Translations under genes and position numbers: made by a program
Shown: positions 82 through 39,015 of the stretch, one piece after another
Position numbering within the stretch: the first letter of the stretch is position 1
Layout of the letters: the number at the start of each line of letters is the position of its first letter
Origin: Enchytraeus crypticus
Taxonomy: Eukaryota; Annelida; Clitellata; Enchytraeida; Enchytraeidae
Length of the DNA stretch: 64,000 bases
NCBI GenBank assembly: GCA_905160935.1
Contig: CAJHZI010000612.1
Span: 274,501-338,500, forward strand
Reading direction: 5' to 3'
Notes under the pieces: generated by a model
Databases searched by the model: none
What the model was told of the DNA's origin: nothing
The model's input: the letters and a program-made list of their open reading frames with translations, nothing else

Positions 82-3000
82 CTGCGTCATCCATGATAAC
101 ATCAAGCATTAGCCTATCTAGTAACTGTGCAAGAACTAAGATGTAGTATAACAGCAGTGTCTGATGTAGCACTGAGAGATACTGTACGTCCAGAAGTATA
201 GAGACAAGTACTGAGAGAGCGAGAGAGACTGAGAGAAAGAGATAGAGAGAGAGAGTGAGAGAGAGAGGGAGAGAGAGAGAGAGGGAGAGTGTGAGAGAGA
301 TGAAATTTATATTCACTGTAATAATAATAATAAAGGTTTAACGTCCGTTTCCTCATCCAGGGATGATGTCAGGGACGTCATAAGTCATTACTCGTAATCG
401 AGTAATGTAACCGAGTGGTAATAAGTTTGTAGAGCATAGGCAGTATTAGGCACGCAGGCTATCAGAGAACGACAACACTATCACTCAAATCATCAGCCAG
501 TATAACAGTAAAGCAGTGTTCATTATAATGGTAAAATCTACAATATGTAAGGATACACAGCGCTCTACATGATCCTATCCTACATGATATATGGCGGATG
601 AGATAATGAGTTCATGAGATAACCTCTTAAGAGACTGTTTGTTCCTCATCCACACATCACACCGGCATGGACATTACATCATATTTACATACAACTCTAC
701 TAGTGCTACTGTAAAGCTGTAATGCTGAAACATCAGTTTCCTCACTCGAAAGCGATGCCAGTAACGGGCGAGCCCAGGATTTGAACCACGCACATACTGA
801 TCCGCAGTAGGATATGACAATGATGTTTTCAGATCGTTTGGGGCGAATCGATTTGTAGTGACATGTGACGGGGGGGGACGTCCCTGACCTTATCCTTGCA
901 CGAGGGAACGGACGTTAAAACTTTATTGTTATTATTATTAACGAGAGATCTTTAAGAGCTCGACAGGATTCATACTGTTTCGAGTTCTATGAGCTCAGTG
1001 CAGGAGGGGAAGTCAATCCTGAAGATAGCCAGGCCTCTCCGCACTCTCGCCTCCTGACTCTGATACGGGACAATCCTCTGCTTGTAGTCGTTAATGGCGG
1101 AGAAAGCTGTCTCTAGCGGCACCTGAGCACTGAACGGTCCATTAGCTCTGTAGTCATCCAGCAGTTCTCTCGCTCCAGCCAAAAACTGCTCTCCCTCCGC
1201 CAATAGATCCGCTCTGAACTTCTCCTGCGTGGTCAATCAATCAATCAATCAATCAACTATCCCTCCGCCAATAGATCTGCTCTGAACTTCTCCTGTGTGG
1301 TCAATTAATCAATCAATCAATAAGTCAATCAATCAATCATTAACTATCCTTCAGTCAATAGATCAGCTCTGAACTGTTTTTGCTCTCTCAATAATCTTTA
1401 CTGATTGATTGATAGTTGTTATAGTTCTCTAAACTCCTCTATTCTCTTTCATCACAGCTAATATTTATATTACACTTATGTAAAACATACACACATTCTC
1501 AAACCTTTTGTCTCTTGATCATAAGCTCCGCCTCTCTTAATTACACTTATGATCTCAAACCTTTTGTCTCTTGATCATAAGCTCCGCCTCTCTTAATTAC
1601 ACTTATGATCTCAAACCTTTTGTCTCTTGATCATAAGCTCCGCCTCTCTTAATTACACTTATGATCTCAAACCTTTTGTCTCTTGATCATAAGCTCCGCC
1701 TCTCTCAGACCGGTTTGGAACTCCGCCCACCTGGAGCTGAGCGCACTGAGCTGAGCGAGGACGAGGTCATCGACCTCGATGTCGTACTTGTGCAGCACAC
1801 TGAACTGATCTGAGAGGACAGGGAACCTCAGTTCAACCTCAGGCATCTCTGCGCTCACTCGCTCCCACAGCTGTAGACTTACGTCTAGCTCATCCATCGT
1901 GTTCGGTGTCTCAGATATACTGTGCCAATCAATCAGTCAATCAATCAATTCATCAATAAGCTGAGAGGACAGGGAACCTCAGCTCTACATCAGGCATCTC
2001 TGCGCTCACTCGCTCCCACAGCTGTAGACTTACATTCAGCTCATCCATAGCGTTAGGTGACTCTGATATACTGTTGCAATCAATCAATCAGTCAGTCAAT
2101 CAATCAATCGATCAATTCACAGCTGTAGGCTCACGTCCAGCTCATCCGTCGTGTTAGGTGGCTCTGATATACTGTGTCAATCAATCAATCAATCAATCAA
2201 TCCATCATCAATCAGTCAATCAATCAATCCATCAATCAATGCATCAATCAATACATCAATCAATCCACAGCTGTAGACTCAAGTCCATGGTTGCATCAAT
2301 CAATCTACCTATCAATCCATCAATCCATTTATTAATCAATCCATAAATCAATCAATAGATCAGTTCGCTAGTCAGTCAGTCAATCAAATAATCACTCCAT
2401 TAGTCAGAGCTGCTTAAATCCTGCTCATCTGATGCAGTGGGTGACTTTGATATACTGCTAAAAAATCAATCAATCTAGCAACGCACAGGCTTGTGTTAGG
2501 ATGACCACATTAATAAAGCTAAAACAGTAAAGATAAGTTTAAATAAAATTATTAGTATGTTATATTTAAGATATATATTTTAAAATTTTATATACCCCTG
2601 ATAAATACCAGATTACAGAAGGCAAGAAGCAATAACATTAATTAGTAACATTAGCTTGCAATCCTAAAGACTGCGAGCTCAAAGACTGGCTTTGGTCATG
2701 ATATGGCAATCTAAATTATGGTTTCAAAAAGGACGACGCTTAAAGAGACGTGTAGAAGACAATGTAGAAAGTAAAGTAAACACGCATTATAGTTAAATGA
2801 TAAATTATGTTAATATCTATCAATTGTTAGTACCACATGTTTAAACCGTTAGGCAATTTTGTCCATTTTCCATGTAACCAGTCCAGTGAATGTCCGAGAT
2901 TTTACTCTCAGATCAGCGTGGCCGGGATTCGAACCCACAAGAGTTCAATTCACCTCAGGATCTGTCATTTAAAATTTCATGACTTTACCCCTACGCTATT

Positions 3001-6000
3001 AAGACATTCTAATGGAAAACTACGGGGCTTAAAGAGACATGAAGAAGACAATGGAAAACTAACAGGGCGGAACTGAGTTTGATCCAGTCGTAGACGAGAG
3101 CAAGACCATTGATAGCCGTGTTGTGCAGCAGAGCCGTGAGCTGTTGCTGCCACTCTACACAGTGAGTCACTATAGAGGACTTCAGCGAGGTGCAGTCTAT
3201 CTGTACAAACTGTACTATCTGCATAGATGTCAGGCCTTGTACACTCTGTTGTATGTCCATGTATCTACATCAACCAATCAATCAATCACTCACTCCACAC
3301 AGTGTGTCACTATAGAGGACTTGAGCGAGGTGCAGTCTATCTGTACAAACTGTACTGTCTGTATAGATGTCAGGCCTGGTACACTCTGTTGTATGTCCAT
3401 GTATCTACATCAATCAATCAATCAATCACTCACTCCACACAGTGTGTCACTATAGAGGACTTCAGCGAGGTGCAGTCTATCTGTACAAACTGTACTGTCT
3501 GTATAGATGTCAGGCCTGGTACATTCTGTTGTACGTCCATGTGTCTACATCAATCAATCAATCAATCAATCAATCAAGCAAGCAAGCAAGAGAGTAATCA
3601 ATGAACAAATCGATCAAGAACTGCATACTGCTTCCATAACTCTAGCTTCAAAAAAGTATATCTGTTCATCAAATATATGTTCATCAGTACATCTGATTGA
3701 ATTAGTGGGACATTAAAGCCCTACAGATAAGGAAGACGCCGGTAATACCTCTGTATATCTAGACCAAAGTAGTGTACTTCAATGAATTCAGTACCTCTGT
3801 ATATCTAGATCAAAGTACTGGACTTCAGGGTGACACAGCTGATACTCTTCAATGAACTCAGTCTTACTGATCTCCCACAGTTCTCGGTAGCTGTCCCACT
3901 GCTCCAGGTAGCCACTCAGCTTCCTACACATCGACTCCATGTTCAGAGTTATCAGCCGCTCTATCTTATCCACATCACTGTCTCCTCCCAATAACTCGTG
4001 CAGCGGCTTCAATCAATCAATCCATCAGTTAGTCAATCAATCAATCGATCAGTTAGCCAGTCAGTAAATTGGTTAGTCAATCAGTTCGTCAGTCAATCAA
4101 TCAGTTAGTCAGTTAATTAGTTAGTCAATCAGTTAATTAGTCAATTAATCAGTTCGTCAGTTAATTAGTAACCTCCGATGTTATAAAGCAAAGATATCTT
4201 TCACTCAGAACGATATTGTCGCTGGAAGTTGCTTTTGCATATTATGAACGAGATGTCGCTTGGCATCTGAGCTGATTTCAGCTACATGTGACAGAACTAT
4301 ATCTTCTCGAGCTCGGGCGGTTAATGTCACCGTCAGATTAAAACAAAGTCGTCGCCAGGCGGCTGACATTCAACCGTCGCAGGTGGCTCCAGCCAATAGG
4401 AGAGCGTGAAATCCTCGCAAACGTTTTGAATTCTTGGAAATACGACATAACAGGCTCAAGATAAAGTTGAGAATAGTAAAGTTTCATAAGATGCAAAAAG
4501 CAGATTAGTAGTTATCTCGAGGATTAAGTCAAACGGTAGAGATTGATATCGGCGAGAATATCTTTCCGTTTATAAGATCGGATATTAGTCAGTCAGTTAG
4601 TTAATGAGTCAATCAGTTATTCAGTTAATTAGTCAAGCATACAGTTATGTAACTAGTAAGTTAGTTGCTCGATCAGTTAAATCACAAATTAAATCTGAAT
4701 TTTAAAAATTAATCAAAATAAAGTCAAATAAGACATCGTTTAGTCTGAGAATATAAAATGCTTCTAAATCCGATAGTTAACTGACTGTTTATACTCGTAA
4801 ATCAGTATTTTTAGAATTATCAATAAATTAACATAAAAATAAATCACTTCATTAATCACATAAGAGAACTTTCAATCATAACTGAACTACAATTAATAAG
4901 ATTTTAGATTTAGCCAATTAGGTGTTACGCTTAGATTTTCAAAAATCTGCACTGTGCTAGTTTTTATGGATTTAAACATTTCGAAGTGTGCAGATTAAAT
5001 ACTGACTAAGTTATGTGAGCATCAAATATCGACTATAATCAATAGCCAATCAAATATCGACTATAATCAATAGCCAATCAAATATCGATTGTAATCTATA
5101 GCAATTCAAATATCGACTATAATCACTAGCCAATCAAATATCGACTATAACCTGTAGACTAAAGACAATCAAATATCGACTATAACCTGTAGACTAAAGA
5201 CAATCAAATATCGACTATAACCTGTAGACTAAAGACAATCAAATATCGAATATAATCCATAGACAATCGAATTTCGACTATAATGCATATCCACAGGTGT
5301 TGAGAGGACTCACATCTTTTCCAGTTCTGCGCTTGGTGAGGCTCTCAGTCAGCCGGGTGATGTTACAGATGTAGCCGGGCAGGTCTTTAGCCAGGCCCAC
5401 CACCGTCCCCATCAGCTCTGAGGCACTAGGGCTGAACTCCAACTACACAGTCAACCAGCATTCTCTCATTATCATTCTACAGCCACCTTGTTATTAGAGT
5501 CATTTAGAGACATTATTATAGACATTATCCCCGTGTTGTGTCCGAGTTCCCCGTGTTGTGTCCAGGTTGTTTAAAGAATTGACCAACTGGGTGACTGCGC
5601 GTGTCGTAGAAGGCGACTAAAGCACTAAGATCCATACCAACGTTAGAAAAGGCATTCGGTTGATGAGCACCAGAAATTGCTACAAAAATTTAAATGAATA
5701 GAATTCTCAATTAGGGCATTAGCTGACCCTGGTTAAAGTGGGATTCAGGGGAAGATGATAATGATGATTAGAGACATTTTTCAAAATATTAGAGACATTT
5801 CTCGCTCAAGTACTCGGTCAAAACAGGTCCAAGGCAGGTACAAGGTTGCTATCACGCTCCAAAAAGAGCAGTAAATCGATCAACAATTCACTTCTCAAAA
5901 GAGCTTATCCACACATTATAACCTTTTAGATAGATGCATATATATTAAAAAGTACAAATTAGAAACACTAATATTATAATAATGGTTCAAGGGAACGGTT

Positions 6001-9000
6001 TATAAATGTTCTCTAGTTGATAAATCCACCAGGTTAGTAATGAAGACAATAAGAGATTTAATGCCTTCATACCATTATATCCAATCAAATGTAGGATATA
6101 TGGCATATTTATCAGGATATGTAATTTCATCTATAGTATAAATCAGCTAATCTATGTCAGAATACATTTCTTAAATATAAGCCGAAAAATTATTTTAGAA
6201 ATGTGAAGAAAAATCAAACTAACCAATTTAACATAGAATTCAAATTAAAGAATTCCAAACAGATAGTAAAGGAAACTAAAACCTTGAGACACATCAGAAG
6301 CTTATTTAAATAAATAAGTCACACGCATGACGTAGTTTCAAAAGAACTCAACTTGTACAAACCTTGTTCTGTTCTAGAACCAGCTGAATTTTAAAGAGAA
6401 CGTTTTGTCTGCCTGATTTACTGTCACTGCTAATTGATTTGAGCAGTTTCTGGAGCGAGAGGCGAACATTAAACCTCAGAGATTCTTCCAGTATCCTATC
6501 AATCTTCTCCACGTAGTGATACCAGTACGTATGAACCTATGATATCAATTTACAAGTACTTCTAGTATCCTATCAACCTTCTCCACGTTGTGATACCAGT
6601 ACGTCTGAACCCATGATATCAATACACAAGTACTATCTTCTGGGTAATCAATCAACTAGACAATCTATCTACTCTAATCTAGTACACGACGCTGTCAATC
6701 AATCACCCAACAATTGAGGACATGGCGTAGCTGCGAGGACTAGAGAGCAGTTTTATGCCTAATCATGAAAGTGTTTGTCTACTGAAGCATCTGCGAGGAC
6801 TAGAGAGTAGCTGTAGGCCTAATCATGAAAGTGTTTGTCTATTGAAGCAGCTGCGAGGACTAGAGAGTAGCTGTAAGCCTAATCATGAAAGTGTTTGTCT
6901 ATTGAAGCAGCTGCGAGGACTAGAGAGTAGCTGTAGGCCTAATCATGAAAGTGTTTGTCTATTGAAGCAGCTGCGAGGACTGGAGAGCAGTTTTAGGCTT
7001 AATCATGAAAGTGTTTGTCTATTGAAACAGCTGAGTGGACTCGAGAGCAGCTATTAGCCTAATCCTGAAAGTGTTTGTCTATTGAAACGGCTAAGTGGAC
7101 TAGAGAGCAGCTGTTGGCTTGTGGATTAGATATCCTTAAAGCCAATTAGAACTTGAAAGACGTACTTCAGGACCGTCATCTTTAAAGACGTCATACAGAC
7201 TGCCTAACTCCTCTATCAGTCTGGACTGAAGAGCTTCCAGCTGACCCATTACCTGACTCTTGTGCTTCATCTTCAACAATCAATCAAACAAACAATCAAT
7301 CAACAAACTACCAGTACAAATTGTCTAGATGTCTGCAGGATAATCAGTGGCAAAAGACTGAATTCCACCTCAGTCACTGCCAAACGTTAGCCAGTCAGAT
7401 TTCTACGTTTATATTCTGTGATCAAAGTTACAGGAACCCACGTCATCCTACAATTTTAAAGATATTTCAGAGAAATTTTCAAGTGTTTGCTTTACTGTAT
7501 TTTTACGCCTATTATAACATTCTCAGTTTTAGCGAAGAAACCTCACAAAGGTTTATATTTTAGGTGTTGCTTATTTATAAATTAACAGCACTTAGTACTC
7601 TAAAATTACGTCTAATTCACATTCAGCCAAGTTTAATTTATGACTCAACAAATAAATTCTATAGAAATTAACATAAATGACATTTAAAGACAGAATGAGA
7701 ATAAATTGATCACCAAAACAGATAAACTCCTGCCTTACATCGTTCAACGTATCTCACAATATCCTAGAATATAGCCGTAGCATTAAAAAGGTGGTAAAGC
7801 TAAGGTTAATGTCAGTTTCCTCATTCAAAAGCGATGTCAGTGACGGGCGGGTCCAGAATTTGAACCCTGCACATACTGATCCGCGATCGAGTATCTAATC
7901 AACAGCATTAATAACAACAGCATTACTTAATTTCACAATAGTGAGTCAGCAGATGATATTAGAAACTTGAGAGTAGTGCAGTCGTACACTTCATGTATAG
8001 CTTAAGAGTCGACCAATCGTAAGGCAGATAGAGACGTATGATTTAACCTGTAGTTCATCGAACTCCTGCTTGCTGTAGACAATCTGAGGGTCGATGTCGA
8101 CCAGTATGAGAGAGCTCATTGCCTGACACACCTCTGCGAAGTTACCACTAGTCAACTTAAAGTCATCAACCTGTTGCTGCACCTAATATCAATCAGTCAA
8201 TCAATCAATCAATCAATCAATAAATGTTTGGTAAATGGATTATAGTTCAATGTTCGAAAGAAAAAGTAACTTAATTAATATTTTCTTGTGATTTCTAAAC
8301 AATTTACTAAAGATTTTAAACGTTTTAAGTTTAGAGATTAGCAAAAGTAAAAAACACTGAGAATATCTTCCAGCCTTACTGCAGTCCTTCAGTTCATTAG
8401 CAGTAAAAAAGCTAATAGTAACGTCAGTTTCCTCACTCGAAAGCCATGTCAGTGACGGACGAGCCCTGGATTTAAACCCCGCACATACTGATCCGCGGTC
8501 GAGTATCTTACTGACTTCGTCACTGGCTCCAGTGCACTCTCGTAGAGCAGAACCCCTACAACAGCTGCTTAACCTTGTCAATACGTTCCTCAAGGCATGT
8601 ACAGACGACGAAGGGGACGTTAAACCCTGGTCGTGCTGTGTGGCAGACCTTGGCAGAGTTGAGTCGACTCTCGTTGACAAAGAGCTGAGCTTTCTCTCGA
8701 CTGGACCAGAGCAGCTTGGTCAGCCCCAGGTTGATCTTCTTGTTCAGGTTGATCACTCGCTCCTTGAACAGTCCCAGCCCCTCTGCCGACAGAGAGTTCA
8801 GGATTCTACAATCAATCGTGTTAACATCATCATCATCATCTTCGTCTCTGATTAATTTTTTTGATTGACGTTATAGTTCTATTTTTCAAATTTTATTATA
8901 TATTATTTAAACTATTATTATTATTTTTATTTTTTACTTAAACGAATGGATAAAGTCTATTCGCATCCCGACCCTGGTTATGATGATGATGATTATATAT

Positions 9001-10286
9001 TATTTTGCTTTCTGTTCCATTTAACTATGTCTATGTGCTTGTTTTCAATTTGTATGGTATAATTATGCTGTGTTTGGATCTAATAAACATATCTCTCTCT
9101 CTCTCTCTCTTCCCTAGAATCCCAGCTCAACCAGGGTCGGGATAGGAATAGACCTTCTACAATCCTTTCTGTCTCACACCAATCACAATGTGCCCATACC
9201 ATTCCATTTTTGAAGCAATTTCTGGAGCCAAGGCACTCACCAACCGAATGTCCTTTATGACGTTGGTTTGGGTCTTACATTTATGTCGGCTTTTACAACA
9301 CTTGCAGAACACGGTTGATTTATTCTTCAGTAACCAGAAAACAACACAGGGATTACATAATTGTTGGCCCTGATTAAGCAGCAATGGGCCATGACTGATT
9401 AATTGAAGGTTAGCCTGATGGAGATTAGACTTGATAAAAGATTGTAACCAATAGTACAATACTTCAGACCTGTTGTAGTCTCTTATAACGAGGTGGATCC
9501 TTTCTCTAAGCATCCACAGCTCATCCTGTATCGGTTCAAGATCCAGGACAAAGTTGGGCAGTTCAAAGGTCAACCTGCCCCAGTACTTCATCTCCTGGTA
9601 TATCTTCTGCAGCTCTCTGTAGTGCAATACCATACTATAAGAAACTAATGTATAATACCATACAAGAAACTAAAATACAATACCATACAATACACTAAAG
9701 TACAATACCATATAATACACTAAAACAAAAATATCATACAAAGCAAAATAATAGCAATTATGCAATTAAATAAAACGGGAACGCCTCGTGGCCCAGTGCG
9801 TAGAGAGTTTGCCTCTTAAACGAGAGGTCGCTGGTACGAGACTGCGTAGCGACGTGGGTTTTTTCTTCTGAGGGGCGAACAAAAACCTAGTCAGTGGTGG
9901 TGTCAGGCCGTTGGATAGTAGACCTTAATGTTCCATTTTCTATCCAGTCCCCTTCGTGTCGACCCCAAATAGGAATAGGGCACGCTGAAAGGAAGTTTTT
10001 ATGCAATTAAATAAAACGACTAAGGCCTAATGACTAAGACCTTGAATTAACATTAGTTTTTTCTATCATTTACACACTAGATCAGGTGACACAATCACCC
10101 AATCAACAGAGAGAAGCGAGTCCACACAGGCTCACATACAACACAACGAGAGAGACTATCAATACAACAAAGAGACCAGAGAGAGAGAGAGAAAGAGACA
10201 GAGAGAGAAAGAGAGAGAGAGAGATGATTGATGAATATAAAACTAGAATACTAACGAGTTAAAGTAGGTATTTATTCGCCCCGACA

Positions 10287-10338
<52 letters not shown>

Positions 10339-10364
10339 GAAGAGAGAGTATAAAGAGAGCAAGA

Positions 10365-10411
<47 letters not shown>

Positions 10412-13400
10412 GAAGATACTGACGAGTTAAAGTTGGAATCAATGCGACCAGGTGAGATAGGGCTCTTCATTAACAACGGTACAGCTAACAGCGACAACGG
10501 CTCCTACAATATTACACAACTTATATTGCACAACTTATTACAATCATCGTCCATACTAATATCATTAAACAAAATATCATTTCAGCTCCCATCTATTATT
10601 TGAAGGAGCAATTTGCAGAAATCACAGTAAAATACGCTACTGAGATTCAGCTAAAGTAAGAAAATGAGAGAAAGATATAGACGGAGTGGGAGACAGAGAG
10701 TTAGAGAGACCTTGTTAATGGAAGTGGTCCATTGGAAGAATCTCTTATGTACAGACTCCTCAAGTGACCTACAGATACGAGCGTGTTGAGCCAACAGATC
10801 AGTCCACTCTGCTATACGTGGTATGAATGTAGCTGCCTCAAACTCCTAACAACAACAATAACACTACATGACAACATCGAGCAGTAGCAACAGATAAAAA
10901 AACTTGCCAGGAACATGTAAAGCAGTCTCGAAGATTGATCATGGCGGCCATGACACTGTTACAGAAATGATTGTTTCAAAAAGCTGTAAAGCCAATGTAA
11001 ACGTCAGTTTCATCTCTCGAAAGTGTTGTCAGTGACGGACGAGCCATGAACTTGAACCTGCACACACTGATGCGCAGTCGGACATCTTAAGGACATCGCC
11101 ACTGGCTCCAGCCAGTACTAAGATTTGGTATTACAATCAATCAATCAATAAGAATTTAAAGTCCGGTTCCTCGCCATAAGGAAAGTCAGGGACGTCAAAT
11201 CAATCAATCAATTACAATTGATTACCACAGAATAAACGAATTTAAAAAGAAAAAAGGTATATTTAAACTTAAACCTCTTTGATTCTCTCAAGACGTCGTA
11301 TGAGAGTCCTGTCCCAGATGGCTCCACCTGAGTAGTGTGGTTGAAAGAGCTCAACGTGGACGCTTTTGTTGAGCATCTCCTGCTTGACTGCGTTCAGCTC
11401 AGCACTGATCAGTGAGTAGGTAAACACGACCTTCTGATCTAGTATTCTCTTTATAGACTACCAACCAATCAATCAATCAATCAATCTCCTGCTTGACTGC
11501 GTTCAGCTCAGCCCTGATCAGTGAGTAGGTCAACACGATCTTCTGATTTAGTATTCTCTTTATAGACTACCAATCAATCAATCAATCAATGACGCTATGT
11601 GGCATGGGAGAAATACCCAACTAGAGAAAAGAGTACAGTAGAGCCAATAGGCATCTAGAGCCAAGAGTACAGGTGAGTCAATCAATGGTCAATCAATCAA
11701 ATTACGTGGAATCAGAGCATATGGAAGAGCCTACAGTAAAGGTGAGTCAATCAATCAATCAATCAATAAATCAGACAATTCAGTGATGAATAGTGAATAA
11801 AAGGCAGACCAACTTCTGGTACAGCAACAATCTATTATTTAAAAACCATGAAAAGCTAGCTCAAGATTCACACATCTACCTGTAATTTCAAAATCTGTTT
11901 TACACAAAATTGTTCTGATAAATTAAGCAATCACTACATAGACCAAAAGTAAGAATAAGACTAGCAATAAGGTACTTAGCACTCTGACTGCTGGTCGATC
12001 GATTGAATTTTTATCTACAGATAGATTTATTGATTGATTGATTGGTTGATTGATTACCGGTCTGATGGAGAGATGTAGGAATATATCTAGTAGGTCTACA
12101 GCCTGCTCTAGTATAACCACTGTATCGAACGAGAGATGAATGAGATTCTGAAGCATCATCTCTATGTCAGTCATGCCCTGCTTAAATCTGTAAACAACCA
12201 ATCAAATCATCCCTATATCAGTCATGCCCTGCTTAAATCTTTAAACAACTAATCAAATCATCCCTACGTCAGTCATGCCCTGCTTAAATCTACAAACAAC
12301 CAATGAAATCATCTCAATGTCAGTCATTCCCTACTTAAATCTGTAAACAACCAATCAAATCATCTCTATGTCAGTCATGCCCTGCTTAAATCTGTAAACA
12401 AACAATCAAATCTTCTATATGATTTGATTGGTCTATGCATCTCTCTGCCTCCTGATCTCTACTCAAGTTCTGTTATTTCAACTTACTATAGCAGGTTGAA
12501 AAACACATCTCTTCCCAACATAGATTTATACCATCTTAACGGACAGCTTTTAGATCACCACTCCGGCACCGTTTAACTTCTTTTCTTTCTCTGCAGCACA
12601 TTTTTAAAAATCGTTTGGATAAATCGATTTCTAGTGACATACGGTGTGGTTGAGTCACAGACATCCTCCTTGTATGAGGAAACGGACGTTAAACCTTTAT
12701 TACCGACTTCGCCACTGACTGGAGCCAGTGGCGAAGTCGGTAAGATACTCGACTGCGGATCAGAAGGTGCGGGTTCAAATCCTGGGCTCGCCCGTCACTG
12801 ACATCGCTTTCGAGTGAGGAAACTGACGTTAACCTTAGCTTTACCAGCTTCTTTTTGCTTTAGCTTTATTATTTATGATAAGATATAGGACGTACATATC
12901 GAAGTCCTCATGCCACGAGGTGGAGTTGACATCAAGCATAGAGAACTTAACGTTGAAGAGGTTCTGCAGATGTCGAGCAAAGTTGTTTTCTATCTCAGTC
13001 AGTTCTCTCGTTAGCTCAGGACCTCTCTGACCTCCAAAGACTGGCATAGGCAGCACCGTGCCATCTACTGTCCTACCAAAGTGCTCCTGGTACTCACACA
13101 CCTGAATCAATCAATCAATTCTCTGACCTCCAATGACTGGCATAGCCAGCACCGTGCCATGTACCGTCCTACCAAAGTGCTCCTGGTACTCACACACCTG
13201 AATCAATCAATCAATCAATCAATCCTCCGACCTCCAAACACTGGTACCTTATCATCCATCTCTCATATTAATTAGTCATCAAGTCAAACATAAGTGTCTG
13301 GATGCAGAACTGGTTGTAAAGGTTCTACATCTCAGTTCTGGTGGGTCTTATTGAAGAATCGGATAAATGAGACTAGAGGCTTTTTTAAGAAAGGCTAAAA

Positions 13401-16400
13401 AACGCAATTTTTGATGTTACTCATCTCTTTATCGAAACTGATGAGAAAACTGACAGAAAATTGTTTTAAACTGACCAGTCATTCCATTAATCAATCTATA
13501 AATCAATCAGTCAATCAATCAAAGTAATCCACTAGTTAATTAATCGAGAAGCTAACACGCTACCACATAAGATCATTACGTACGCTTAGTAGATCATTAC
13601 AGCGCTGTATAAACGTATCCACTTGAGCAAACACTCCACTATCTTCAACCTTCCAGCCCAAACCTGACATTCGACCGTGCATCTTAGATATCTGTACAAA
13701 CAGTACATTTATAGACCATTCTTCCACCTAAAACAAGCTTATCTTAGATATCTGTACACACAGCACATTCATATGTCACTTTAACACCTAAACAATGCCA
13801 CAGTTTTACTAGAGAGAATATTAAGTGAAAAATAGAAATTAGCAAGAATCAGAAGCTTGGATGTCCAATTCGGTGATTAATTTAATAGATAGACGTTAGT
13901 TGTTCAAGAATACAGACCATTGCTCATCTAGGCAATTCTCATTGAAGCACTTATAAATCAAGTATTTCTAGCAGAAATCTAGGGAAGGAAATCTTAAGAG
14001 TCCATATCATATCTCCTAATTTCAGTAATCTGAGGATTGTCTAAAGAAGAAAAATTGTAGTAATTTTATTATAAGCTAAATTCTTAACATGTTAAACTTC
14101 ATAGTATAAAATGTAATAAAGAAATTCAATCTACTACTAGATTAGACACAATAGTAACCATAGATCTCGTTGAAAGAGACTGTACAGATAATAAATAAGA
14201 TACACACCCAGTTGTAGATCTTCTTGCATTGTTCACAACACTCAATGCTCGCATTTAGAGCCGCCCTACTCTTACTTATTTGACCCTCGTAGAGCGCATC
14301 CAGATCTATAGAGTCTGAACACTGTAGTATGATCTGTACAAACACCTACACATCACATATAACGTCTAGATCTATAGAGTCTGAACACTGTAGTATGATC
14401 AGTACAAACACCTACACATCACACATAACGTCCAGATCTATAGAGTCTGAACACTATAGTATGATCAGTACAAACACCTACACATCACACATAACGTCTA
14501 GATCTATAGAGTCTAAACACTGTAGTATGATCTGTACAAACACCTACATCTCAATCTATCATCATCGATAATCATTAACTAGGTTATCAATTATTGCTCA
14601 ATCAGTCATCATTATTAGTCATTTAATTAATTAGTATATCAGTAAAGGCTTCGTCAAGTCATCGTCATGAAGTCATTAACTGCCTCAATCAAATAATTAG
14701 TGTTCGTCAGAGGCGACTAACGCATCCTTAATTGGATGCACGTCGCTTGCACTATTTGAACTGCGCCACAAGCTGGTGTGATTTGTTATAATCAAATAAT
14801 CATTGAATCATGAACTTAGTTATTATGATATACTCTATCAAAAGTATCACCATTACGATATCAATTAGATTATTAGTGTATGCTTAATCAAATAATCATC
14901 ATTTAGTCTTATGATCTTCTTCTTTGAGGTAAATCTTCAGCAAATTTTGAAATATAAGTTTATTACTTTTCATAATAAATATCAGCCGGATTTGGAAAAA
15001 TTTTCTGGAACCTGAACCGGATTTGCAGAAAATGCCGGAATCAGGTTAAACAGGAATCGGAATCCGGTACACCCTACTAGATCTAAAACAATGCGTTAAT
15101 GCTTTTGACAAATCTATCTACATGTATGTCAGATCTCTATTATGAAACAAGAGCCTTAAGTTATTTGGCAATAACAAAGCCTGATAATTGCAGTCTTAAA
15201 GTAGTTAGCACATGTACATTGAGCGACTAACATTAAGGAATAGGCTGGATAGAACTCATTTAGCACAAAGAAAGAGAGAGTCTCTAGAGAGAGAGAAAGA
15301 GAGAGAGAGAGAGAGTGCGAGAGAGAGCGATACAGAGGAGTCCTTAGAGAGAGAGAGAGAGAGAGTGAAAGAGAGAGAGAGAGGAGTCTCTAGAGAGAGA
15401 GAGAGAGAGAGACTAACGCTACGGAAGAGACCAGAGAGAGCCCTCTCGCTGTTGTAGTGTGGAGATCTCGTCCAGACCATTCTGATCTTGTGCAGCAGTG
15501 GGGGCAGCACGTCAGGGATGTCTATGGGCTTAGAGGCGCAGAGCAGCTCTATAGAGCCCAGCAGAGCCTCCAGGTACAGTCTGTTACTCTCCGCCTCCTC
15601 CACCACTCTCTGATCAATCAATCAATCAGTCATCAACTTCATCAGCTTATCCATCAATCAATCAATCAGCTAATAGACAAGTTAATCAGCCTATCCATCA
15701 ATCAATCTCTCAATCACTCAGTCGGCAAATTAATTAGCTTATCCGTCAATCAATCAATCTCTCAATCAGTTAGTCGACAAATTAATCAGCTTATCCAGTA
15801 CGACAATAGGCAATAAATAAAATACATTATAGCCAACCAAACTAATTGACTCAAAATGTTAAACAAAAAAATTACTTATAAATTTAAAAAATAAATAGGA
15901 CTATGTTAAAAACAATTACTAATTTGGTTACTTAATAATAATCGTAATTAATAACCACAAAATTTTTTGTTGTAGGCAAACAATGAGGCCATAATCACCA
16001 CTGACCATGATCTCTCCAGAGAGTTTGAGGAATGGGGACACGTAGAAGGACTTGGCGTGCTCCAGTATGGCCAGGGTGTTCTTGACTCCGGCGCTGTCCA
16101 GCTGAATCCTGATCCCACTCAAGTCCTCGCAGCGATTCCTCCAGAACCGTACTTCCTGCAGCGGACCCATCGCTTCACTGGATCCTGGCTTAATGCCCTG
16201 CTGAGCACTCAGAACCTCCTTAACCTGCCTCGTCCAGTGGATAACTGTCGCTATGAGTCAATCAATCAATGAATCAACCATTCAGTTTATCTGTGAATAA
16301 ATTGTTAATCAAGTGTTCAGTCAATTAATAGATCAAACCAGCAATATACCATTAATCTAGTAATCAACCAATCAGTTATTCTAGCTGTGAATAAATAGTT

Positions 16401-18851
16401 AGCAAGTGTTCAATCGATTAATAAATCAATCAATCAATATATTATTGATCAAATAATCAACCCAACCAATCATTTAGTTAATCAATATATAAACAATCTA
16501 TCCAGTAATCAATCAATTAGTCAGTTAATGATTGGTATTTGTATTTATGCATTTTATGTTTGCATGTACAGTTGTTATCCATTCGTATCCCGACCCTGGT
16601 TAAACTGGGATTTAAGGGAAGATGATGATGATGATGATGTACAGTTGTTGTCTTGGAGGAAATAAGCATATATCTCTCCATCTATCTAATGTTTAAATAA
16701 ATAGTAACGTATGACTATATGGCAGTACTTACTCTCCAGCTGCTGTACGAGTTCTTTATTTTTAAAGACGAGCTCAGGCTGAGTATTGGTCCCGCCCTCA
16801 TGCGGCACATACAGCTCTGTCTTGCCGTTCTTCTTACCATTAGCATCGGTCAGTGAGGTCATGAACCTGTGCATTTGACCTATGAACTCTCCCTTCAGAC
16901 TGACCGGCCACTGGTCAGTACCACGACAAGCAGGCAGGAACACCCCGTGCATCGTCCTCAGCAGAGCTTCCACCGTGTAGGTGGGTGGAGCCTCCAGTGA
17001 CTTAGTCCCTGGCATTGTCTTAGCTGCTCAACAATAATAACATACAGACTGAGCTAGTAACATGATCAGTTAGGATTCTCACAGCATATCACAATGTGCA
17101 GCATTCGTAGACTGAGCTAGTAACATGATCAGTTAGGCTTCCCACAGCATATCACAATGTGCAGCATTAATAGCTCGTTTCATTGCTGATATAGCATCAT
17201 TTCATTCATGGCTGGAGCCAGTGACGATGTCGGGAAGTTATTCGACTGTGGATCAGTATGTGCGGGTTGAAATCCTGGGCTCGCCCATCACTGACTTCGC
17301 TTTCGAGTGAGGAAACTGACGTTAACATTAGCTTTCAACTAGGAGCCACAGAGCCATTACCGATGCCTGGCCGCTGAGCCACAGGAAGGAGGCGCATGTA
17401 GACGACGTCGCTGTGGAAGCTCTCCACAGAGAGAGACTTGTGCTCTGAGGTCAGCTTAACGCTGTCCCGTGCCTTCTCTTTCACTGCGCTCACTGTGCGA
17501 GGCTTGCGTAGAAACATCTGATACTCTCCCACCTGTCAATCATCGGGATCAGTATAATACATGGCTAGCATAGTTTTCGTTTTATTTGTTTCCTTTATTT
17601 TCTGGGATTTTGTATTCAGTATGTATTAAATTGCTTCTTTGGTTGTGCAATGGCGGAGTGCTATTTGCCCCAGTGGCGAAATAAAGATATATATCAATCA
17701 ACATGTACAGAAATCAATTAACTATAACAAAATTAAAAAGCTCCTAGAAATAGAAATTTGTTTGATGTGTCTACTATACAGAAAGAGCCATCTGCTAGAG
17801 CATACTCAGGGGCAGATTCATAATTTTTCGGGGGGATTGGGCCAAACTTTTTTTAAGAACATTTTTTTAATCATGCAACTGTTTTGTTAGCTTTTGAGAG
17901 ACTGAAACTATTGACTATGATCGCCACCCCCCTGAGACATTAACAGACCACTGGTAAACGTCATTGTAAATTCTTTTCGGTTATATATGACACAATGTTT
18001 AAGTTAAAAATATTTAATAGATTTTGAGGGGCCATGGCACCTTTGGCCACCCCCTGGATCCGCCACTGAACACGCTACGTAGCAAAACTCAAGAGTAGTA
18101 TATTCAAAAGTTTCATCTATTTTGTTAAATTGCATGAAAATTTGTCATATAGTAATAACTACTAGTACTCAATGGAATTTCCAAGTTAAGGTTTACAACT
18201 TGAGATAGGGGAAGCCTGGACTCCTGAGATACACTGATTGACTGGACAATGTATTGACTGAAATATAAAGTCGAATTAAGGATGAATTAAATTAGTATCT
18301 TAAATAAAATCAGTAGACTATAATAACCTGTCGATGAGGTATACTGGTAATGACTCTAAGTTGACCGTTAGGAGCTAGATACACACACAACAAATCCGTT
18401 TTTCCAGCCACAAACTTATCCACCTCGTCGAAATGATCCGGATTCCACTGATCTATGGTAATCTTGTTGTTGAGACACCGATCAATCAGGATCTGCTGGA
18501 CTGAGCCCATGGGACCCAGCGACACGGCTGACTCCACTGTGCTCACAGTGCTTCCACTAAAGGACGCTGCTCTCGTCACAGCACCCGCAGGACCCGGTGT
18601 CTGAGGCTGAACGCTCGCTGATCTCTGACTCGCAGTCGACTCCCCGCCTGCGCTCGACGCAATGGAAGGAACGCGAGAGACGGACAATTCACTTTCTTCG
18701 TAGTTCATCTTGGAGGCGTCAGTGAGGACGCTAGCGGAACTGACAGTCGAGCCGTCGGAGTCAGCACGGCTGCTCTGAGACCTCGCAACGCTGCTGCCCT
18801 TGCTCACGTCTGAGCCTGCCACTGAGGGGCTCACACTGTTCCCTTCCGTCA
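1..18851 (-). CDS. DNAH2: Axonemal dynein heavy chain, DNAH2-like, 5' part of gene (23 exons, partial)
   Basis: Spliced gene read right to left. The exons give about 1,420 codons of dynein heavy-chain tail (DHC_N1-type stem), ending at the start of the linker (DHC_N2). The AAA motor, stalk and microtubule-binding parts lie beyond the left edge. Similarity to vertebrate DNAH2 is collinear: FWRNRCEDLSGI, VWTRSPHYN, STSWHEDF, VIRDYNR, WDSYRELWEI, LDVSLQLW and the terminal WGSWKSSRF all fall in the expected order and spacing. DNAH2 is known as an inner-arm (I1/f type) dynein heavy chain in motile cilia and flagella; the tail binds the partner heavy chain and intermediate chains. Each junction keeps GT/AG and reading phase. 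The N-terminal 100 or so residues are Ser/Thr-rich and unlike other dyneins, as usual for this family. Paralogue choice (DNAH2 rather than another inner-arm heavy chain) is strong but rests on memory of the family. Confidence 0.9.
310..382 (-). mobile_element. Retroposon 3' module, family C, with (ATT)n tail
   Basis: Family C (sense): GGGGACGTCCCTGACATCAT, CCTTGGATGAGGAAACGGAC, GTTAAACCTTTATT then (ATT)n. Shares GAGGAAAC-GACGTTAA with family A. This copy is antisense. Sense copies at 878-942, 12640-12702, 40665-40790, 40945-41035, 53566-53650, 54668-54800, 56228-56300 and 61797-61888; partial or TTGA-tailed copies at 11145-11200, 32538-32612, 34655-34750 and 40865-40925. Confidence 0.65.
714..832 (-). 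mobile_element. tRNA-derived SINE, family A
   Basis: Family consensus (sense): GGCTGGAGCCAGTGGCGAAG then TCGGTAAGATACTCGACCG, GGGTTCAAATCC (B box), CGCCCGTCACTGACATCG, GAGGAAACTGACGTTA. TGGCGAAGTCGG is a good A box. This copy is antisense and 5' truncated. Confidence 0.7.
976..1224 (-). CDS. DNAH2: DNAH2-like exon 22
   Basis: 249 nt, phase 0 to 0. Encodes EKFRADLLAEGEQFLAGARE, AFSAINDYKQRIV and RGLAIFRIDFPS. Two degenerate copies of its 5' edge lie at 1258-1300 and 1345-1390. Confidence 0.92.
1225..1400 (-). repeat. Two copies of the DNAH2 exon 22 acceptor edge with TTGA repeats
   Basis: CAATAGATCTGCTCTGAACT and CAATAGATCAGCTCTGAACT echo exon 22's first codons; the nearer copy keeps TCTCCTGTG (AG acceptor). 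Confidence 0.82.
1501..1668 (-). repeat. 3 x 56-bp tandem copies of the DNAH2 exon 21 donor edge
   Basis: Each unit contains the last codons of exon 21 (ATGATCAAGAGACAAAAG) plus GTTTGAG, then intron. Period exactly 56, nearly identical to each other. They lie downstream of exon 21 in the transcript. Confidence 0.92.
1673..1919 (-). CDS. DNAH2: DNAH2-like exon 21
   Basis: 247 nt, phase 2 to 0. Encodes ISETPNTMDELDVSLQLWE, FSVLHKYDIEVDDLVLAQL and ELMIKRQK, aligned with LGVSLQLVDAL. Has echoes on both sides: 56-bp donor-edge copies and several acceptor-edge copies. Confidence 0.93.
1953..2460 (-). repeat. Partial copies of the DNAH2 exon 21 acceptor edge, interleaved with TTGA repeats
   Basis: Copies at about 1957-2077 (longest), 2108-2180, 2265-2290 and 2405-2455. 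Each is a version of the exon 21 start (CATCCATAGCGTTAGGTGAC on the plus strand) and, in most, the acceptor, separated by CAAT repeats. Confidence 0.85.
2776..3012 (-). mobile_element. tRNA-derived SINE, family B
   Basis: Family B (sense): TTAATAGCGTAGGGGTAACG (A-box-like), CTCGTGGGTTCGAATCCCAG (B box), GAGTAAAATCTCTGACATTC, GCCTAACGGTTTAAACATGT, ending near GATCATTTCACTATAATGCG. This antisense copy is nearly full length, 50 bp from DNAH2 exon 20. Confidence 0.78.
3064..3264 (-). CDS. DNAH2: DNAH2-like exon 20
   Basis: 201 nt, phase 2 to 2. Encodes YMDIQQSVQGL, QFVQIDCTSLKSSIVTHCVE and VYDWIKLSSA, aligned with VLLDCSHLKFSLVQHCNEW. Acceptor GATTGATGTAG, donor CCT|GTTAGT. Its first 111 nt are repeated twice more upstream as separate potential exons (3294-3404 and 3434-3544). 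Confidence 0.9.
3294..3404 (-). CDS. DNAH2: Candidate duplicate mini-exon of DNAH2 exon 20 (copy 2)
   Basis: Acceptor GATTGATGTAG, 111 nt, donor GA|GTGAGTGATT. Starts and ends phase 2 and is fully open (QFVQIDCTSLKSSIVTHCVE), so it could be included between exons 19 and 20 without frameshift. Inclusion would duplicate 37 residues of the stem. Whether it is ever spliced in is unknown. Confidence 0.45.
3434..3544 (-). CDS. DNAH2: Candidate duplicate mini-exon of DNAH2 exon 20 (copy 3)
   Basis: Same design as the copy at 3294-3404: 111 nt, phase 2-2, acceptor GATGTAG and donor GTGAGT, open throughout. It differs from copy 2 by a few bases, two or three of them amino-acid changing. Confidence 0.45.
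3725..3787 (-). repeat. Copy of the DNAH2 exon 19 donor edge
   Basis: Second version of exon 19's last bases (GATCTAGATATACAGAG then GTA) about 55 bp downstream in the transcript; retains a GT. Confidence 0.75.
3795..4006 (-). CDS. DNAH2: DNAH2-like exon 19
   Basis: 212 nt, phase 0 to 2. Encodes PLHELLGGDSDVDKIERL, LEQWDSYRELWEISKTEF and FDLDIQR. Acceptor GATTGATTGAAG. One copy of the donor edge follows at about 3730-3785. Confidence 0.93.
4007..5313. other. DNAH2 intron 18 (transcript order), no gene
   Basis: Starts with a 150-bp TTGA/TTAG tract; 4200-4560 is unique sequence of higher GC that I do not recognise; then AT-rich sequence and the minisatellite at 5020-5290. Confidence 0.6.
5020..5290. 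repeat. Minisatellite in DNAH2 intron 18
   Basis: Units built on AATCAAATATCGACTATAA, of about 24 and 38 bp, roughly eight copies. Confidence 0.85.
5314..5442 (-). CDS. DNAH2: DNAH2-like exon 18
   Basis: 129 nt, phase 0 to 0, donor GAT|GTGAGT. Encodes LEFSPSASELMGTVVGLAKD and ITRLTESLTKRR, collinear with VEFSPTLQTLAGVVNDI. Confidence 0.92.
6363..6536 (-). CDS. DNAH2: DNAH2-like exon 17
   Basis: 174 nt, phase 0 to 0. Encodes VEKIDRILEESLRFNVRLSL and NVLFKIQLVLEQNK. A partial 5'-edge copy at 6556-6620 has lost its AG. Confidence 0.9.
6556..6625 (-). repeat. Copy of the DNAH2 exon 17 acceptor edge
   Basis: Repeats the first 60 or so nt of exon 17 (TACTGGTATCACAACGTGGA); the acceptor AG has become TG. 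Confidence 0.8.
6722..7118. repeat. 60-bp minisatellite, about 7 copies
   Basis: Unit begins CTGCGAGGACTAGAGAGTAG, CCTAATCATGAAAGTGTTTG. In the DNAH2 intron between exons 16 and 17. The open frame through it follows only from a period divisible by three. Confidence 0.9.
7166..7270 (-). CDS. DNAH2: DNAH2-like exon 16
   Basis: 105 nt, phase 0 to 0. Encodes KSQVMGQLEALQSRLIEEL and YDVFKDDGPE, matching YEVFKNDGPE of DNAH2. Acceptor ATTGTTGAAG. Confidence 0.9.
7790..7900 (-). mobile_element. tRNA-derived SINE, family A
   Basis: Antisense copy, 5' end lost; retains the B box (as ATTTGAACCC), the GTCAGTGACGGGCG block and the AATGTCAGTTTCCTCA 3' block. Confidence 0.7.
8048..8182 (-). CDS. DNAH2: DNAH2-like exon 15
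   Basis: 135 nt, phase 0 to 0. Encodes VQQQVDDFKLTSGNF and QIVYSKQEFDELQ. Acceptor follows a TTGA-repeat tract. Confidence 0.9.
8403..8534 (-). mobile_element. tRNA-derived SINE, family A
   Basis: Nearly full antisense copy ending at GTCACTGGCTCCAGTG, with B box and CGTCAGTTTCCTCACTC block. In the DNAH2 intron after exon 14. Confidence 0.75.
8649..8805 (-). CDS. DNAH2: DNAH2-like exon 14
   Basis: 157 nt, phase 2 to 0. Encodes LGLFKERVINLNKKINLGL, KLLWSSREKAQLFVNESRL and NSAK. Acceptor preceded by GATTGATTGTAG. Confidence 0.92.
9470..9634 (-). CDS. DNAH2: DNAH2-like exon 13
   Basis: 165 nt, phase 2 to 2. Encodes MVLHYRELQKIYQEMKYW, LTFELPNFV and LRERIHLVIRDYNR, the classic dynein stem motif. 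Confidence 0.93.
9783..9995 (+). mobile_element. tRNA-like SINE, family F (single copy seen)
   Basis: TCGTGGCCCAGTGCGTAGAG (A-box-like) and GGTCGCTGGTACGAGACTGC (B-box-like) 45 nt apart resemble a tRNA head; the rest is unique here, ending CGTGTCGACCCCAAATAGG. In the intron between DNAH2 exons 12 and 13. Confidence 0.5.
10160..10410. repeat. GA-rich microsatellites
   Basis: Long (GA)n runs in the intron next to DNAH2 exon 12; similar tracts at 200-302, 15275-15412, 31365-31455, 53930-54020, 54345-54390 and 56142-56190. Several are the tails of LINE copies. Confidence 0.85.
10236..10290 (-). repeat. Copy of the DNAH2 exon 12 donor edge
   Basis: Repeats the exon end (ACTTTAACTCG then TTAGTATT) beyond a GA-rich tract. 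Confidence 0.7.
10424..10503 (-). CDS. DNAH2: DNAH2-like exon 12
   Basis: 80 nt, phase 0 to 2 with donor CTC|GTCAGT. Encodes SLLAVPLLMKSPISPG and RIDSNFN. A donor 4 nt later (TCA|GTATCT) also exists but would break phase with exon 13. A partial copy of the donor edge lies at about 10240-10285. Confidence 0.78.
10711..10845 (-). CDS. DNAH2: DNAH2-like exon 11
   Basis: 135 nt, phase 0 to 0. Encodes FEAATFIPRIAEWTDL and ESVHKRFFQWTTSINK, collinear with the QEWTSSLDKD segment of DNAH2. Confidence 0.88.
10978..11118 (-). mobile_element. tRNA-derived SINE, family A
   Basis: Full-length but diverged antisense copy ending CGCCACTGGCTCCAGCCA. Confidence 0.75.
11275..11457 (-). CDS. DNAH2: DNAH2-like exon 10
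   Basis: 183 nt, phase 0 to 0. Encodes SIKRILDQKVVFTYSLISAE and GGAIWDRTLIRRLERIKE, matching the ARWVHILRRRIDRV region. One degenerate copy of the 5' half lies at 11486-11580. Confidence 0.9.
11482..11585 (-). repeat. Copy of the DNAH2 exon 10 5' half
   Basis: About 90 nt of exon 10 with acceptor (ATTGGTAG) and several substitutions; ends in CAAT repeats rather than a donor. Confidence 0.85.
12058..12187 (-). CDS. DNAH2: DNAH2-like exon 9
   Basis: 130 nt, phase 2 to 0. Encodes FKQGMTDIEMMLQNLI and AVDLLDIFLHLSIRP. Four tandem copies of its acceptor edge follow at 12190-12420. Confidence 0.9.
12190..12425 (-). repeat. 4 tandem copies (about 58 bp) of the DNAH2 exon 9 acceptor edge
   Basis: Unit: CTTAAATCTGTAAACAACCA plus AATCAAATCATC and ATGTCAGTCATGCCCTG (plus strand). 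Three copies keep an acceptor-like CTGTAAAC or a variant. Confidence 0.88.
12707..12850 (+). mobile_element. tRNA-derived SINE, family A, with head-to-head palindrome
   Basis: Full copy: A box TGGCGAAGTCGG at 12729-12740, B box GGGTTCAAATCC at 12771-12782. Preceded by an inverted copy of its own first bases, making a palindrome at 12703-12742. Confidence 0.82.
12896..13101 (-). CDS. DNAH2: DNAH2-like exon 8
   Basis: 206 nt, phase 0 to 2. Encodes VCEYQEHFGR, GGQRGPELTRELTEIENNF and MLDVNSTSWHEDFD. The acceptor directly follows TTGA repeats; a partial copy of the 5' edge sits upstream. Confidence 0.93.
13112..13240 (-). repeat. Copy of the DNAH2 exon 8 5' part
   Basis: About 90 nt of exon 8 with its acceptor and TTGA tract, a few substitutions, then a second shorter remnant at 13222-13240. 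Confidence 0.85.
13584..13691 (-). CDS. DNAH2: DNAH2-like exon 7
   Basis: 108 nt, phase 0 to 0. Encodes ISKMHGRMSGLGWKVED and VFAQVDTFIQRCNDLLS, the conserved FAQVDAFxxRCxDL stem motif. Too short to stand out as an ORF; found from frame continuity and the motif. Confidence 0.9.
13738..13792 (-). repeat. Copy of the DNAH2 exon 7 acceptor edge
   Basis: TTATCTTAGATATCTGTACA repeats the exon 7 edge and acceptor at 13681-13700. Confidence 0.7.
14208..14345 (-). CDS. DNAH2: DNAH2-like exon 6
   Basis: 138 nt, phase 0 to 0. Encodes SDSIDLDALYEGQ and SIECCEQCKKIYNW, the expected stem segment after the RSPHYN motif. Three tandem partial copies of its 5' edge lie just upstream in the intron. Confidence 0.88.
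14350..14560 (-). repeat. 3 tandem copies (about 65 bp) of the DNAH2 exon 6 acceptor edge
   Basis: Each unit holds acceptor (ATGTGTAG) and 48 open nt of exon 6 ending at a GAC|GTTATG junction, which happens to be phase 0-0. Confidence 0.9.
15418..15609 (-). CDS. DNAH2: DNAH2-like exon 5
   Basis: 192 nt, phase 0 to 0. Encodes LPPLLHKIRMVWTRSPHYN and ends GLFRS. The acceptor abuts a TTGA repeat. The donor AGC|GTTAGT is followed at once by a CT-rich microsatellite (GA-rich on the plus strand). Confidence 0.93.
16006..16250 (-). CDS. DNAH2: DNAH2-like exon 4
   Basis: 245 nt. Encodes VIHWTRQVKEVLSAQ, then FWRNRCEDLSGI and SFYVSPFLKLSGEIM, a diagnostic stretch of dynein stems. Acceptor follows a TTGATTGA tract; donor ATG|GTCAGT. 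Confidence 0.93.
16568..16645 (+). mobile_element. Retroposon 3' module, family E, with (GAT)n tail
   Basis: TCGTATCCCGACCCTGGTTA, AACTGGGATTTAAGGGAAGA, then (TGA)n. Other copies: 5708-5775, 8945-8995, 49428-49495 (+) and 9108-9160 (-). Confidence 0.55.
16733..17023 (-). CDS. DNAH2: DNAH2-like exon 3
   Basis: 291 nt, phase 1 to phase 1, donor AGA|GTAAGT. Encodes YTVEALLRTMHGVFLPAC and, near the end, KNKELVQQLE, matching the DNAH2 segment KDKELVQRLE. Confidence 0.9.
17207..17337 (+). mobile_element. tRNA-derived SINE, family A
   Basis: Full-length copy (GGCTGGAGCCAGTGACGATG ... GACGTTAACATTAGCTTT). Ends about 25 nt from the donor of DNAH2 exon 2, on the opposite strand to the gene. Confidence 0.78.
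17361..17532 (-). CDS. DNAH2: DNAH2-like exon 2
   Basis: Acceptor preceded by ATTGACAG; begins phase 0 with VGEYQMFLRKP and ends phase 1 at RPGI. 172 nt. A SINE (family A) ends about 26 nt beyond the donor. Confidence 0.8.
17812..18066. mobile_element. Possible hAT-like MITE
   Basis: Left end near CAGGGGCAGATTCAT, right end GGATCCGCCACTG, G-rich inside the left end and C-rich at the right, as in CAGTGGCGGATCC-type MITEs. No clear target duplication. Lies in intron 1 of the DNAH2-like gene. Confidence 0.5.
18328..18851 (-). CDS. DNAH2: DNAH2-like exon 1 (first recognised)
   Basis: Acceptor at 18852-18853, donor at 18326-18327, ends phase 0 after IPHRQ. The first 100 or so residues are Ser-rich and low complexity; the conserved part begins near QQILIDRCLNN and ends LRVITSIPHRQ. 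An in-frame ATG at 18864 could be the true start (179 codons). Otherwise the exon is spliced to an unseen 5' exon at codon position 2. I cannot decide between these. Confidence 0.8.
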
Positions 18852-37919: not shown

Positions 37920-37964
<45 letters not shown>

Positions 37965-38062
37965 TTTATTTTACCCCGGTGTAAAGAACCTGGGGTTTGA
38001 TAAAAACGATTCAAGCAATACGTGCTGAATCGCCGCCCGACTACTCGAGGTCATCAATCGGC

Positions 38063-38096
<34 letters not shown>

Positions 38097-38972: not shown

Positions 38973-39015
<43 letters not shown>

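Follow-up and report, generated by a model that had tools for sequence, protein, structure and literature searches.

The introns of an axonemal dynein heavy chain gene in Enchytraeus crypticus contain, beside many of its exons, tandem partial copies of the exon edge with the splice site included. This structure is real, belongs to a kind that has already been described, occurs here at high density and is joined to an unusual 3′ intron end. The copies, which are called echoes below, are probably minisatellites of the type known from lancelets as mirages, wherein UG/TTGAT tracts would slip, grow and promote tandem duplications that are purged from exons and tolerated in introns.

The window, meaning the whole 64,000-nucleotide stretch that was analyzed (C519:274501-338500, in an assembly of 524 Mb and 802 contigs), carries on its minus strand the gene for axonemal dynein heavy chain 2 (DNAH2). 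Its best matches in a PDB search are DNAH2 chains (9fqr_D0, E 8.1e-221 to the gene; a second DNAH2 chain, E 1.3e-216), and 323 amino acids of the motor region are 75.9% identical to a turtle, 69.6% to a schistosome and 78.8% to one further record; a fish fragment reaches 82.5%, over 211 amino acids only. With splice sites picked by phase and homology, a 22-exon model yields 1,398 residues and 0 stops, and its exon 22 end and exon 1 start coincide with the end points of the original prediction. The acceptor at 81 belongs to a 23rd exon, which continues beyond the window edge. The gene goes on to the left of the window and was modelled to about C519:234417, giving some 78 modelled exons in total. 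Exon models beyond the window's 22 are predictions without RNA support, and about the last ten C519 exons are out of frame in the concatenation (38 stops). The gene and the repeats at its exon borders are arranged as follows.

976..18851, minus strand: DNAH2 exons 22 to 1 (22-exon model, PDB DNAH2 match)
976..1224, minus strand: exon 22 (22-exon model)
1192..1396, minus strand: exon 22 acceptor array; two echoes joined by TTGA tracts, the first with AG (38/40), the second partial and lacking AG
1497..1705, minus strand: exon 21 donor array; the exon end with its GT is copied three times into the intron, unit 56 bp (TRF 3.7 copies, 100%)
1673..1919, minus strand: exon 21 (22-exon model)
1810..2214, minus strand: exon 21 acceptor array; two echoes, both with AG, each preceded by a TTGA-type tract
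3064..3264, minus strand: exon 20 (22-exon model)
3151..3572, minus strand: exon 20 acceptor array; 140-bp unit, two echoes, both with AG, one TTGA tract per unit (TRF 3.0 copies, 95%)
3741..3827, minus strand: exon 19 donor echo; offset 46 nt, 33/40, GT retained
6485..6634, minus strand: exon 17 acceptor array; 74-bp unit, echo without AG, no TTGA array
11375..11590, minus strand: exon 10 acceptor array; 109-bp unit, AG retained, TTGA tract
12155..12421, minus strand: exon 9 acceptor array; 51-bp unit, four echoes, 4/4 with AG, just a short TTGATTGG-like tract
13024..13215, minus strand: exon 8 acceptor array; 96-bp unit, one echo of 40/40, (TTGA)n immediately 5′ of each AG
13689..13790, minus strand: exon 7 acceptor, degenerate echo; 28/40, under threshold in the 32-nt test
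14302..14548, minus strand: exon 6 acceptor array; 66-bp unit, three echoes, 3/3 with AG, no TTGA array
15613..15797, minus strand: TTGA-rich intron array immediately before the exon 5 acceptor; acceptor window uncopied (16/32)

An echo was counted where the 32-nt window across a splice site was matched at 26 or more of its 32 positions within 500 nt, low-complexity windows being left out. By this test, 8 of the 22 acceptors in the window (exons 6, 8, 9, 10, 17, 20, 21 and 22) and 2 of the 22 donors (exons 19 and 21) bear echoes. Copies had been proposed at 11 exons, nine of which pass; exon 7 (acceptor, 21/32) and exon 12 (donor, 25/32) lie under the threshold. Indeed, chance would not repeat echoes so often, as had been argued, given that an order-1 Markov version of the locus produced an echo in 0 of 900 windows. 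The stated lean toward the acceptor side is evident from the counts, and the AG that many copies were said to keep is intact in 15 of the 17 listed acceptor copies of the window, the weak exon 7 copy among them. The description of the copies as usually spaced by TTGA fits 5 of the 8 echo-bearing acceptors (exons 8, 10, 20, 21 and 22), where (TTGA)2 is present, and fails at the other three. Tandem acceptor copies number three at exon 6, four at exon 9 and two each at exons 20, 21 and 22 (one of those at exon 22 being partial); the exon 21 donor has three tandem copies, each matching 40/40. Repeat units in the window measure 46-151 bp.

To place these counts in context, the whole of DNAH2 was combined with six more stretches that match the dynein MT domain, giving seven loci, with a GC content of 0.31-0.43, and 202 modelled exons. 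One of the added loci, C196, is a second DNAH2-like gene, and another, C360, is nearest to DNAH7. Echo-like, low-complexity and SINE-like calls were removed by hand from the automatic exon models (7 in C519, 17 in C196, 5 in C360), and we also excluded calls with a coding score below 10 or a length below 60, as well as C519 calls outside 234000-274581, the 22 curated exons being substituted in the window. Low-complexity windows were omitted from all echo counts and from the rotation test, in which the duplicated stretches of a locus are rotated relative to its exons.

Over the seven loci, echoes occur at 36 of 202 acceptors and 17 of 202 donors, and thus at 53 of 404 borders (13.1%), compared with 1,084 of 7,674 intron-interior windows lying at least 60 nt from a border (14.1%). 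The whole of DNAH2 gives 33 of 156 borders (21 of 78 acceptors, 12 of 78 donors) versus 405 of 1,878 intron-interior windows. Exon interiors have fewer echoes in 6 of the 7 loci. Under rotation, 3,720 exonic bases of DNAH2 would be expected within duplicated stretches and 2,461 are found there (P 0.004); 5 of the 7 loci show such a deficit of exonic duplicated bases at P under 0.02. Because borders are not enriched and exon interiors are depleted, the duplications appear to fall along introns, and the remnants at borders look like copies of exon edges. Anchoring of the copies at exon borders is therefore not supported. Within the seven dynein loci, duplication is as frequent at intronic positions as at borders, the outcome that the original prediction had itself named as speaking against the border-anchored process it suggested. 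What stands of that suggestion is recurrent local tandem duplication that leans toward acceptors and often includes TTGA in its unit.

Acceptor copies lie almost entirely on one side, 35 of the 36 being upstream of the exon and 1 downstream. The best copy is 0.80-1.00 identical in 6 of the 7 loci, C204 having none. The fraction of windows with an echo is 0.17-0.24 in DNAH2, 0.18-0.38 in C196, 0.09-0.16 in C360 and C440, and 0.002-0.11 in C452, C204 and C328. A regional effect was considered and rejected, as the rate of about 0.2 within the gene gives way to 0.019 in L013, the stretch next to it, and to 0.038-0.095 in the other flank, which is the rest of the window; echo density goes with the gene and not with the region. 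Four random 5-kb stretches gave 0-0.03 in three cases and 0.34 in the fourth, L030, where nine tandem 67-bp units at 680-1266 each combine an exon head with an AG that is preceded by (TTG)n.

What is anchored at acceptors is the TTGA repeat. Within the last 40 nucleotides of the intron, (TTGA)2 is present at 60 of the 202 acceptors of the seven loci, as opposed to 3 of 202 positions after donors, 2 of 202 on the antisense strand before acceptors and 154 of 3,044 deep-intron windows. The corresponding values for DNAH2 are 31 of 78 acceptors, 1 of 78 after donors, 1 of 78 antisense and 52 of 701 deep windows. The remaining loci differ widely: such acceptors make up 17/29 in C196, 6/21 in C360, 3/16 in C440, 3/17 in C328, 0/28 in C452 and 0/13 in C204. 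Deep C196 introns carry (TTGA)2 without strand bias (44 sense versus 47 antisense among 438 windows), and antisense arrays follow 16 of 202 donors in the seven loci. Some of the other acceptors were seen by eye to bear (TTG)n, (TGTA)n or (TATTG)n. A periodicity test at p 0.01 was passed by 40 of the 78 tracts at DNAH2 acceptors, by 17 of the 78 on the donor side and by 30 of 192 windows deep in introns. We dropped the idea that TTGA arrays are the 3′ tail of a retroelement, for which a one-strand position right before acceptors would be unexpected.

Acceptors free of arrays point to what the arrays may have grown from. Among 138 such acceptors, GTTGT was found at 34, TGTTG at 35 and TGTGT at 35, compared with 106, 121 and 140 of 2,087 deep windows, and TTGAT was found at 25 of 138 versus 144 of 2,087; no enrichment of poly-T (TTTTT) was found in the same comparison. 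As these acceptors are UG-rich and enriched in TTGAT and have no poly-T excess, we infer a native 3′ signal made of UG-rich sequence with TTGAT, of which the arrays would be the expanded form. The branch-site consensus is YTNAY, which TTGAT fits. The general pattern YTRAY shows no enrichment upstream of acceptors (29/66 versus 524/1,391, p 0.30; 30/72 versus 252/696, p 0.37), so that a branch-site role, to which TTGAT itself would point, is a guess.

The association may extend to the whole genome, where (TTGA)3.75 has 10,922 hits with a YAG no more than 5 nt downstream and 3,793 with a YAC, a ratio of 2.88 in overlapping hits rather than site counts; the ratio of the bare triplets YAG and YAC in the analyzed loci is 1.17. 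In the seven loci and L030 together, the sense strand has 35 (TTGA)3.75-YAG sites, of which 15 coincide with acceptors of the models and 11 with echoes of the acceptor that follows; the comparison counts are 12 with YAG on the 5′ side, 9 with YAC and 3 with antisense YAG. Twenty places were then taken from the head of the listed genome hits, near neighbors being skipped. An open frame with a coding score of at least 9.9 begins from such an AG at 7 of the 20, where other AGs in the same frame score alike, and at the other 13 there is none. The 24-nt head recurs at 20 or more of 24 positions in 9 of the 20 places, three of which were judged by eye to be of low complexity. A literature search, which left most subscription journals uncovered, found no description of TTGA repeats as 3′ splice elements.

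If TTGA tracts drove the copying, acceptors with arrays should be those with echoes. Pooled over genes, such an association is seen (OR 2.95, p 0.005), but it is confounded by gene and within genes holds in C360 only (5 of 6 array acceptors versus 0 of 15 others, p 0.0003), and TTGA was accordingly rejected as the driver of echoes. In DNAH2, echoes accompany 9 of 31 array acceptors versus 12 of 47 others (p 0.80), and the link is absent from C196 (p 1). Since array and echo are not associated within these two genes, the tract is not required for the copies.

The second DNAH2-like gene (C196:325656-354793, L017-L019) permits a comparison of the arrays by descent. Its exons are 60-91% identical to those of C519, exon by exon; 27 of 29 match a C519 exon, and 23 of these 27 start with the same residue, which indicates that the introns predate the split of the paralogues. 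Among the 27 matched introns, an array is present in both genes at 7, in C196 only at 10, in C519 only at 4 and in neither at 6 (p 1). Array presence is thus statistically independent between the paralogues, and arrays have accordingly come and gone independently in the two genes.

The original prediction knew of no described class of this kind, yet the same structure has been described as mirages in lancelets (PMC3087553, PMC3902484). In these two papers, the globin mirages involve both border types, have 3 and 6 units in two haplotypes that are 81-100% identical, and are spliced regularly by RT-PCR (PMC3087553), and the PGBD5 mirage has a 60-bp unit present in 2 versus 7 copies in two assemblies (PMC3902484); the latter paper adds PGBD5 to the mirage cases and cites troponin C. 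As in these lancelet cases, the unit in the dynein genes spans the exon-intron boundary, acceptor and donor borders are both involved, and many copies retain AG or GT. The copies lie on the intron side, and the true exons stay open, as the stop-free 1,398-residue model illustrates. Units of tens to about 160 bp (roughly 10-160 bp for mirages, with copies about 81-100% identical) likewise agree with the unit lengths and best-copy identities given above. Unlike in these lancelet mirages, the unit here often has (TTGA)n, (TTG)n or (TGTA)n right before the AG, at acceptors nearly always in sense orientation; about a fifth of the borders of one gene (the 33 of 156) are affected, and the structure is known here from DNA alone. 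No mirages outside lancelets were found in a literature search to which most subscription journals did not contribute.

Two other systems share single features with these arrays. CFTR intron 8 has a (TG)m(T)n tract, a UG repeat near the 3′ splice site, at a single polymorphic site. The dynein introns resemble it in having a simple UG-type repeat immediately upstream of the acceptor and differ in that such repeats abound across several genes and most often have TTGA as their unit. The RdRp gene of potato reportedly gained an intron by tandem genomic duplication. That event is likewise a local tandem duplication with splice signals inside, whereas the introns here are common to paralogues and older than the copies.

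The differences between exons and their echoes are rich in silent changes. Of 106 differences in the copied exon heads, 64 fall at third codon positions; counted as distinct variants, there are 115 silent, 75 missense and 5 stop, a silent fraction of 0.59 (115/195) versus 0.28 for neutral change. We reasoned that one copy that is neutral from birth, placed beside an evolving exon, should give a silent fraction not above about 0.44. With the neutral rate set to 0.28, 0.31 or 0.34, the pooled excess over this bound has a p of 1e-5, 7e-4 or 0.013, respectively. DNAH2 alone shows no significant excess over it (51/102 silent, p 0.12), the other loci being more silent-rich (64/93, p 0.009), and in the window's eight arrays 20 of 50 are silent, a departure from plain neutrality alone (p 0.045). 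Across the 17 arrays that have at least two echoes, the variants seen in a single echo comprise 39 silent, 30 missense and 2 stop. The pattern is no more than suggestive of selection on the echoes; exchange between diverged exon alleles and use of the copies would account for it equally.

The mirage-type account that we favor begins with a unit made of an intron end (often a UG or TTGA repeat), a YAG and the first exon codons, or of the corresponding donor segment. UG-rich, TTGAT-enriched 3′ intron ends, whose tracts may serve in splicing, would slip into (TTGA)n, (TTG)n or (TGTA)n arrays. These repeats would permit misaligned pairing, whereby neighboring DNA, including the exon head, could be duplicated. 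Slippage or template switching into the repeat, followed by unequal exchange within the array, would be the simplest course of events. Duplications could arise anywhere along introns, with those in exons removed by selection, such that border copies are left on the intron side, where splicing presumably skips the outer ones as a rule. The copied exon head often ends, and the next unit starts, in a repeat tract, and the short shared words GAT, ATTG and GATTGA are seen by eye at some joints. Several observations count against this account: (TTGA)2 is missing from three of the window's eight echo-bearing acceptors and from every acceptor of C452 and C204, array and echo are unlinked in DNAH2 and C196, and plain slippage does not predict a silent excess between copies. 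Our confidence in it is also slightly lowered by the unenriched YTRAY pattern and by the missing strand bias in deep C196 introns.

Each of the alternatives accounts for part of these data. Were the echoes maintained because they serve as decoys or alternative acceptors, with splice site and frame under selection, one would expect the silent-rich, mostly third-position differences described above and an AG as well preserved as it is (65 of 72 echoes, in matching windows that included the AG and so favored its retention). We nevertheless consider this unlikely, given that DNAH2 alone shows no significant silent excess, that the window's arrays depart from plain neutrality only, and that exchange between diverged alleles also yields silent-rich differences. 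Moreover, the TTGA arrays have stops in all three frames, so that splicing to an echo would yield a truncated protein. A process that is anchored at borders and copies splice sites preferentially, as first proposed, draws on the larger number of acceptor than donor copies and on a slight excess of covered acceptors in DNAH2 (24 observed versus 18.2 expected under rotation, P 0.046). However, covered donors in the same gene fall below expectation (13 versus 18.3), in none of the other loci does an acceptor excess reach P below 0.17, the seven-locus totals are 45 acceptors versus about 38 expected and 25 donors versus about 38, and borders as a whole are no richer in echoes than intron interiors; we regard such a process as very improbable.

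The partial copies might also be scars of intron gain by tandem duplication, a route proposed in the lancelet globin paper (PMC3087553). This origin would require introns that are new relative to the paralogues. The match between nearly all C196 exons and their C519 counterparts instead dates the introns to before the paralogues diverged, whereas copies reach 100% identity with the exon, and the proposal is left with scant probability. That the arrays are an assembly artefact or uncollapsed haplotypes is scarcely credible. The differing PGBD5 copy number in lancelet assemblies (2 versus 7; PMC3902484) and an identical 2,454-base overlap between two contigs of the present assembly speak for it, but the copies differ mutually by point changes, their rate falls to 0.019 in adjacent L013, and the same class of structure recurs in two paralogues and in L030.

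A bolder extension of the mirage-type account, which we regard as doubtful though worth stating, is that the usual pyrimidine tract has been replaced by a UG/TTGAT signal that grows into simple repeats at a large proportion of acceptors, and that many acceptors lie in a small treadmill of exon-head copies. These copies would owe their retained AG and silent-rich changes to exchange with exon alleles or to occasional use. If this were true, earlier forms of the exon head would be stored in the intron, and gene structure would remain open to change. Acceptors are usually thought of as fixed; many here are low-complexity, fast-changing repeats with duplicated exon heads alongside, in a gene for a large motor protein that, with some 78 modelled exons, is still open despite the copies. 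The arrays form a natural set of cases for how the spliceosome picks one AG among several near-identical ones, and they bear on whether mirages are confined to lancelets.

Several further features were observed. The two overlapping contigs (C24:9201-11700 and C199:6101-8600) share their 2,454 identical bases near the contig starts, by overlap or duplication in the assembly; being identical throughout, they were uninformative as a source of heterozygosity between haplotigs. A SINE-looking dispersed repeat with a tRNA-like stretch was noted by eye at window positions 720-800, 7800-7900, 8400-8500, 10980-11100, 12700-12850 and 17200-17340; ARAGORN found no tRNA in the window. Gene pieces lie at 31901-39726 on the plus strand, with an immunoglobulin-domain match of 27.6 bits that is under the curated cut-off of 30, and at 42671-56635 on the minus strand, two of the latter without a Pfam match. 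The window also holds a minisatellite at 29891-30691 with a 25-bp TTGA-containing unit, TTGAGAGATATTGGTTGAAAGTGAG, and about 63 copies of the heptamer ATTATCT at 32092-32526.
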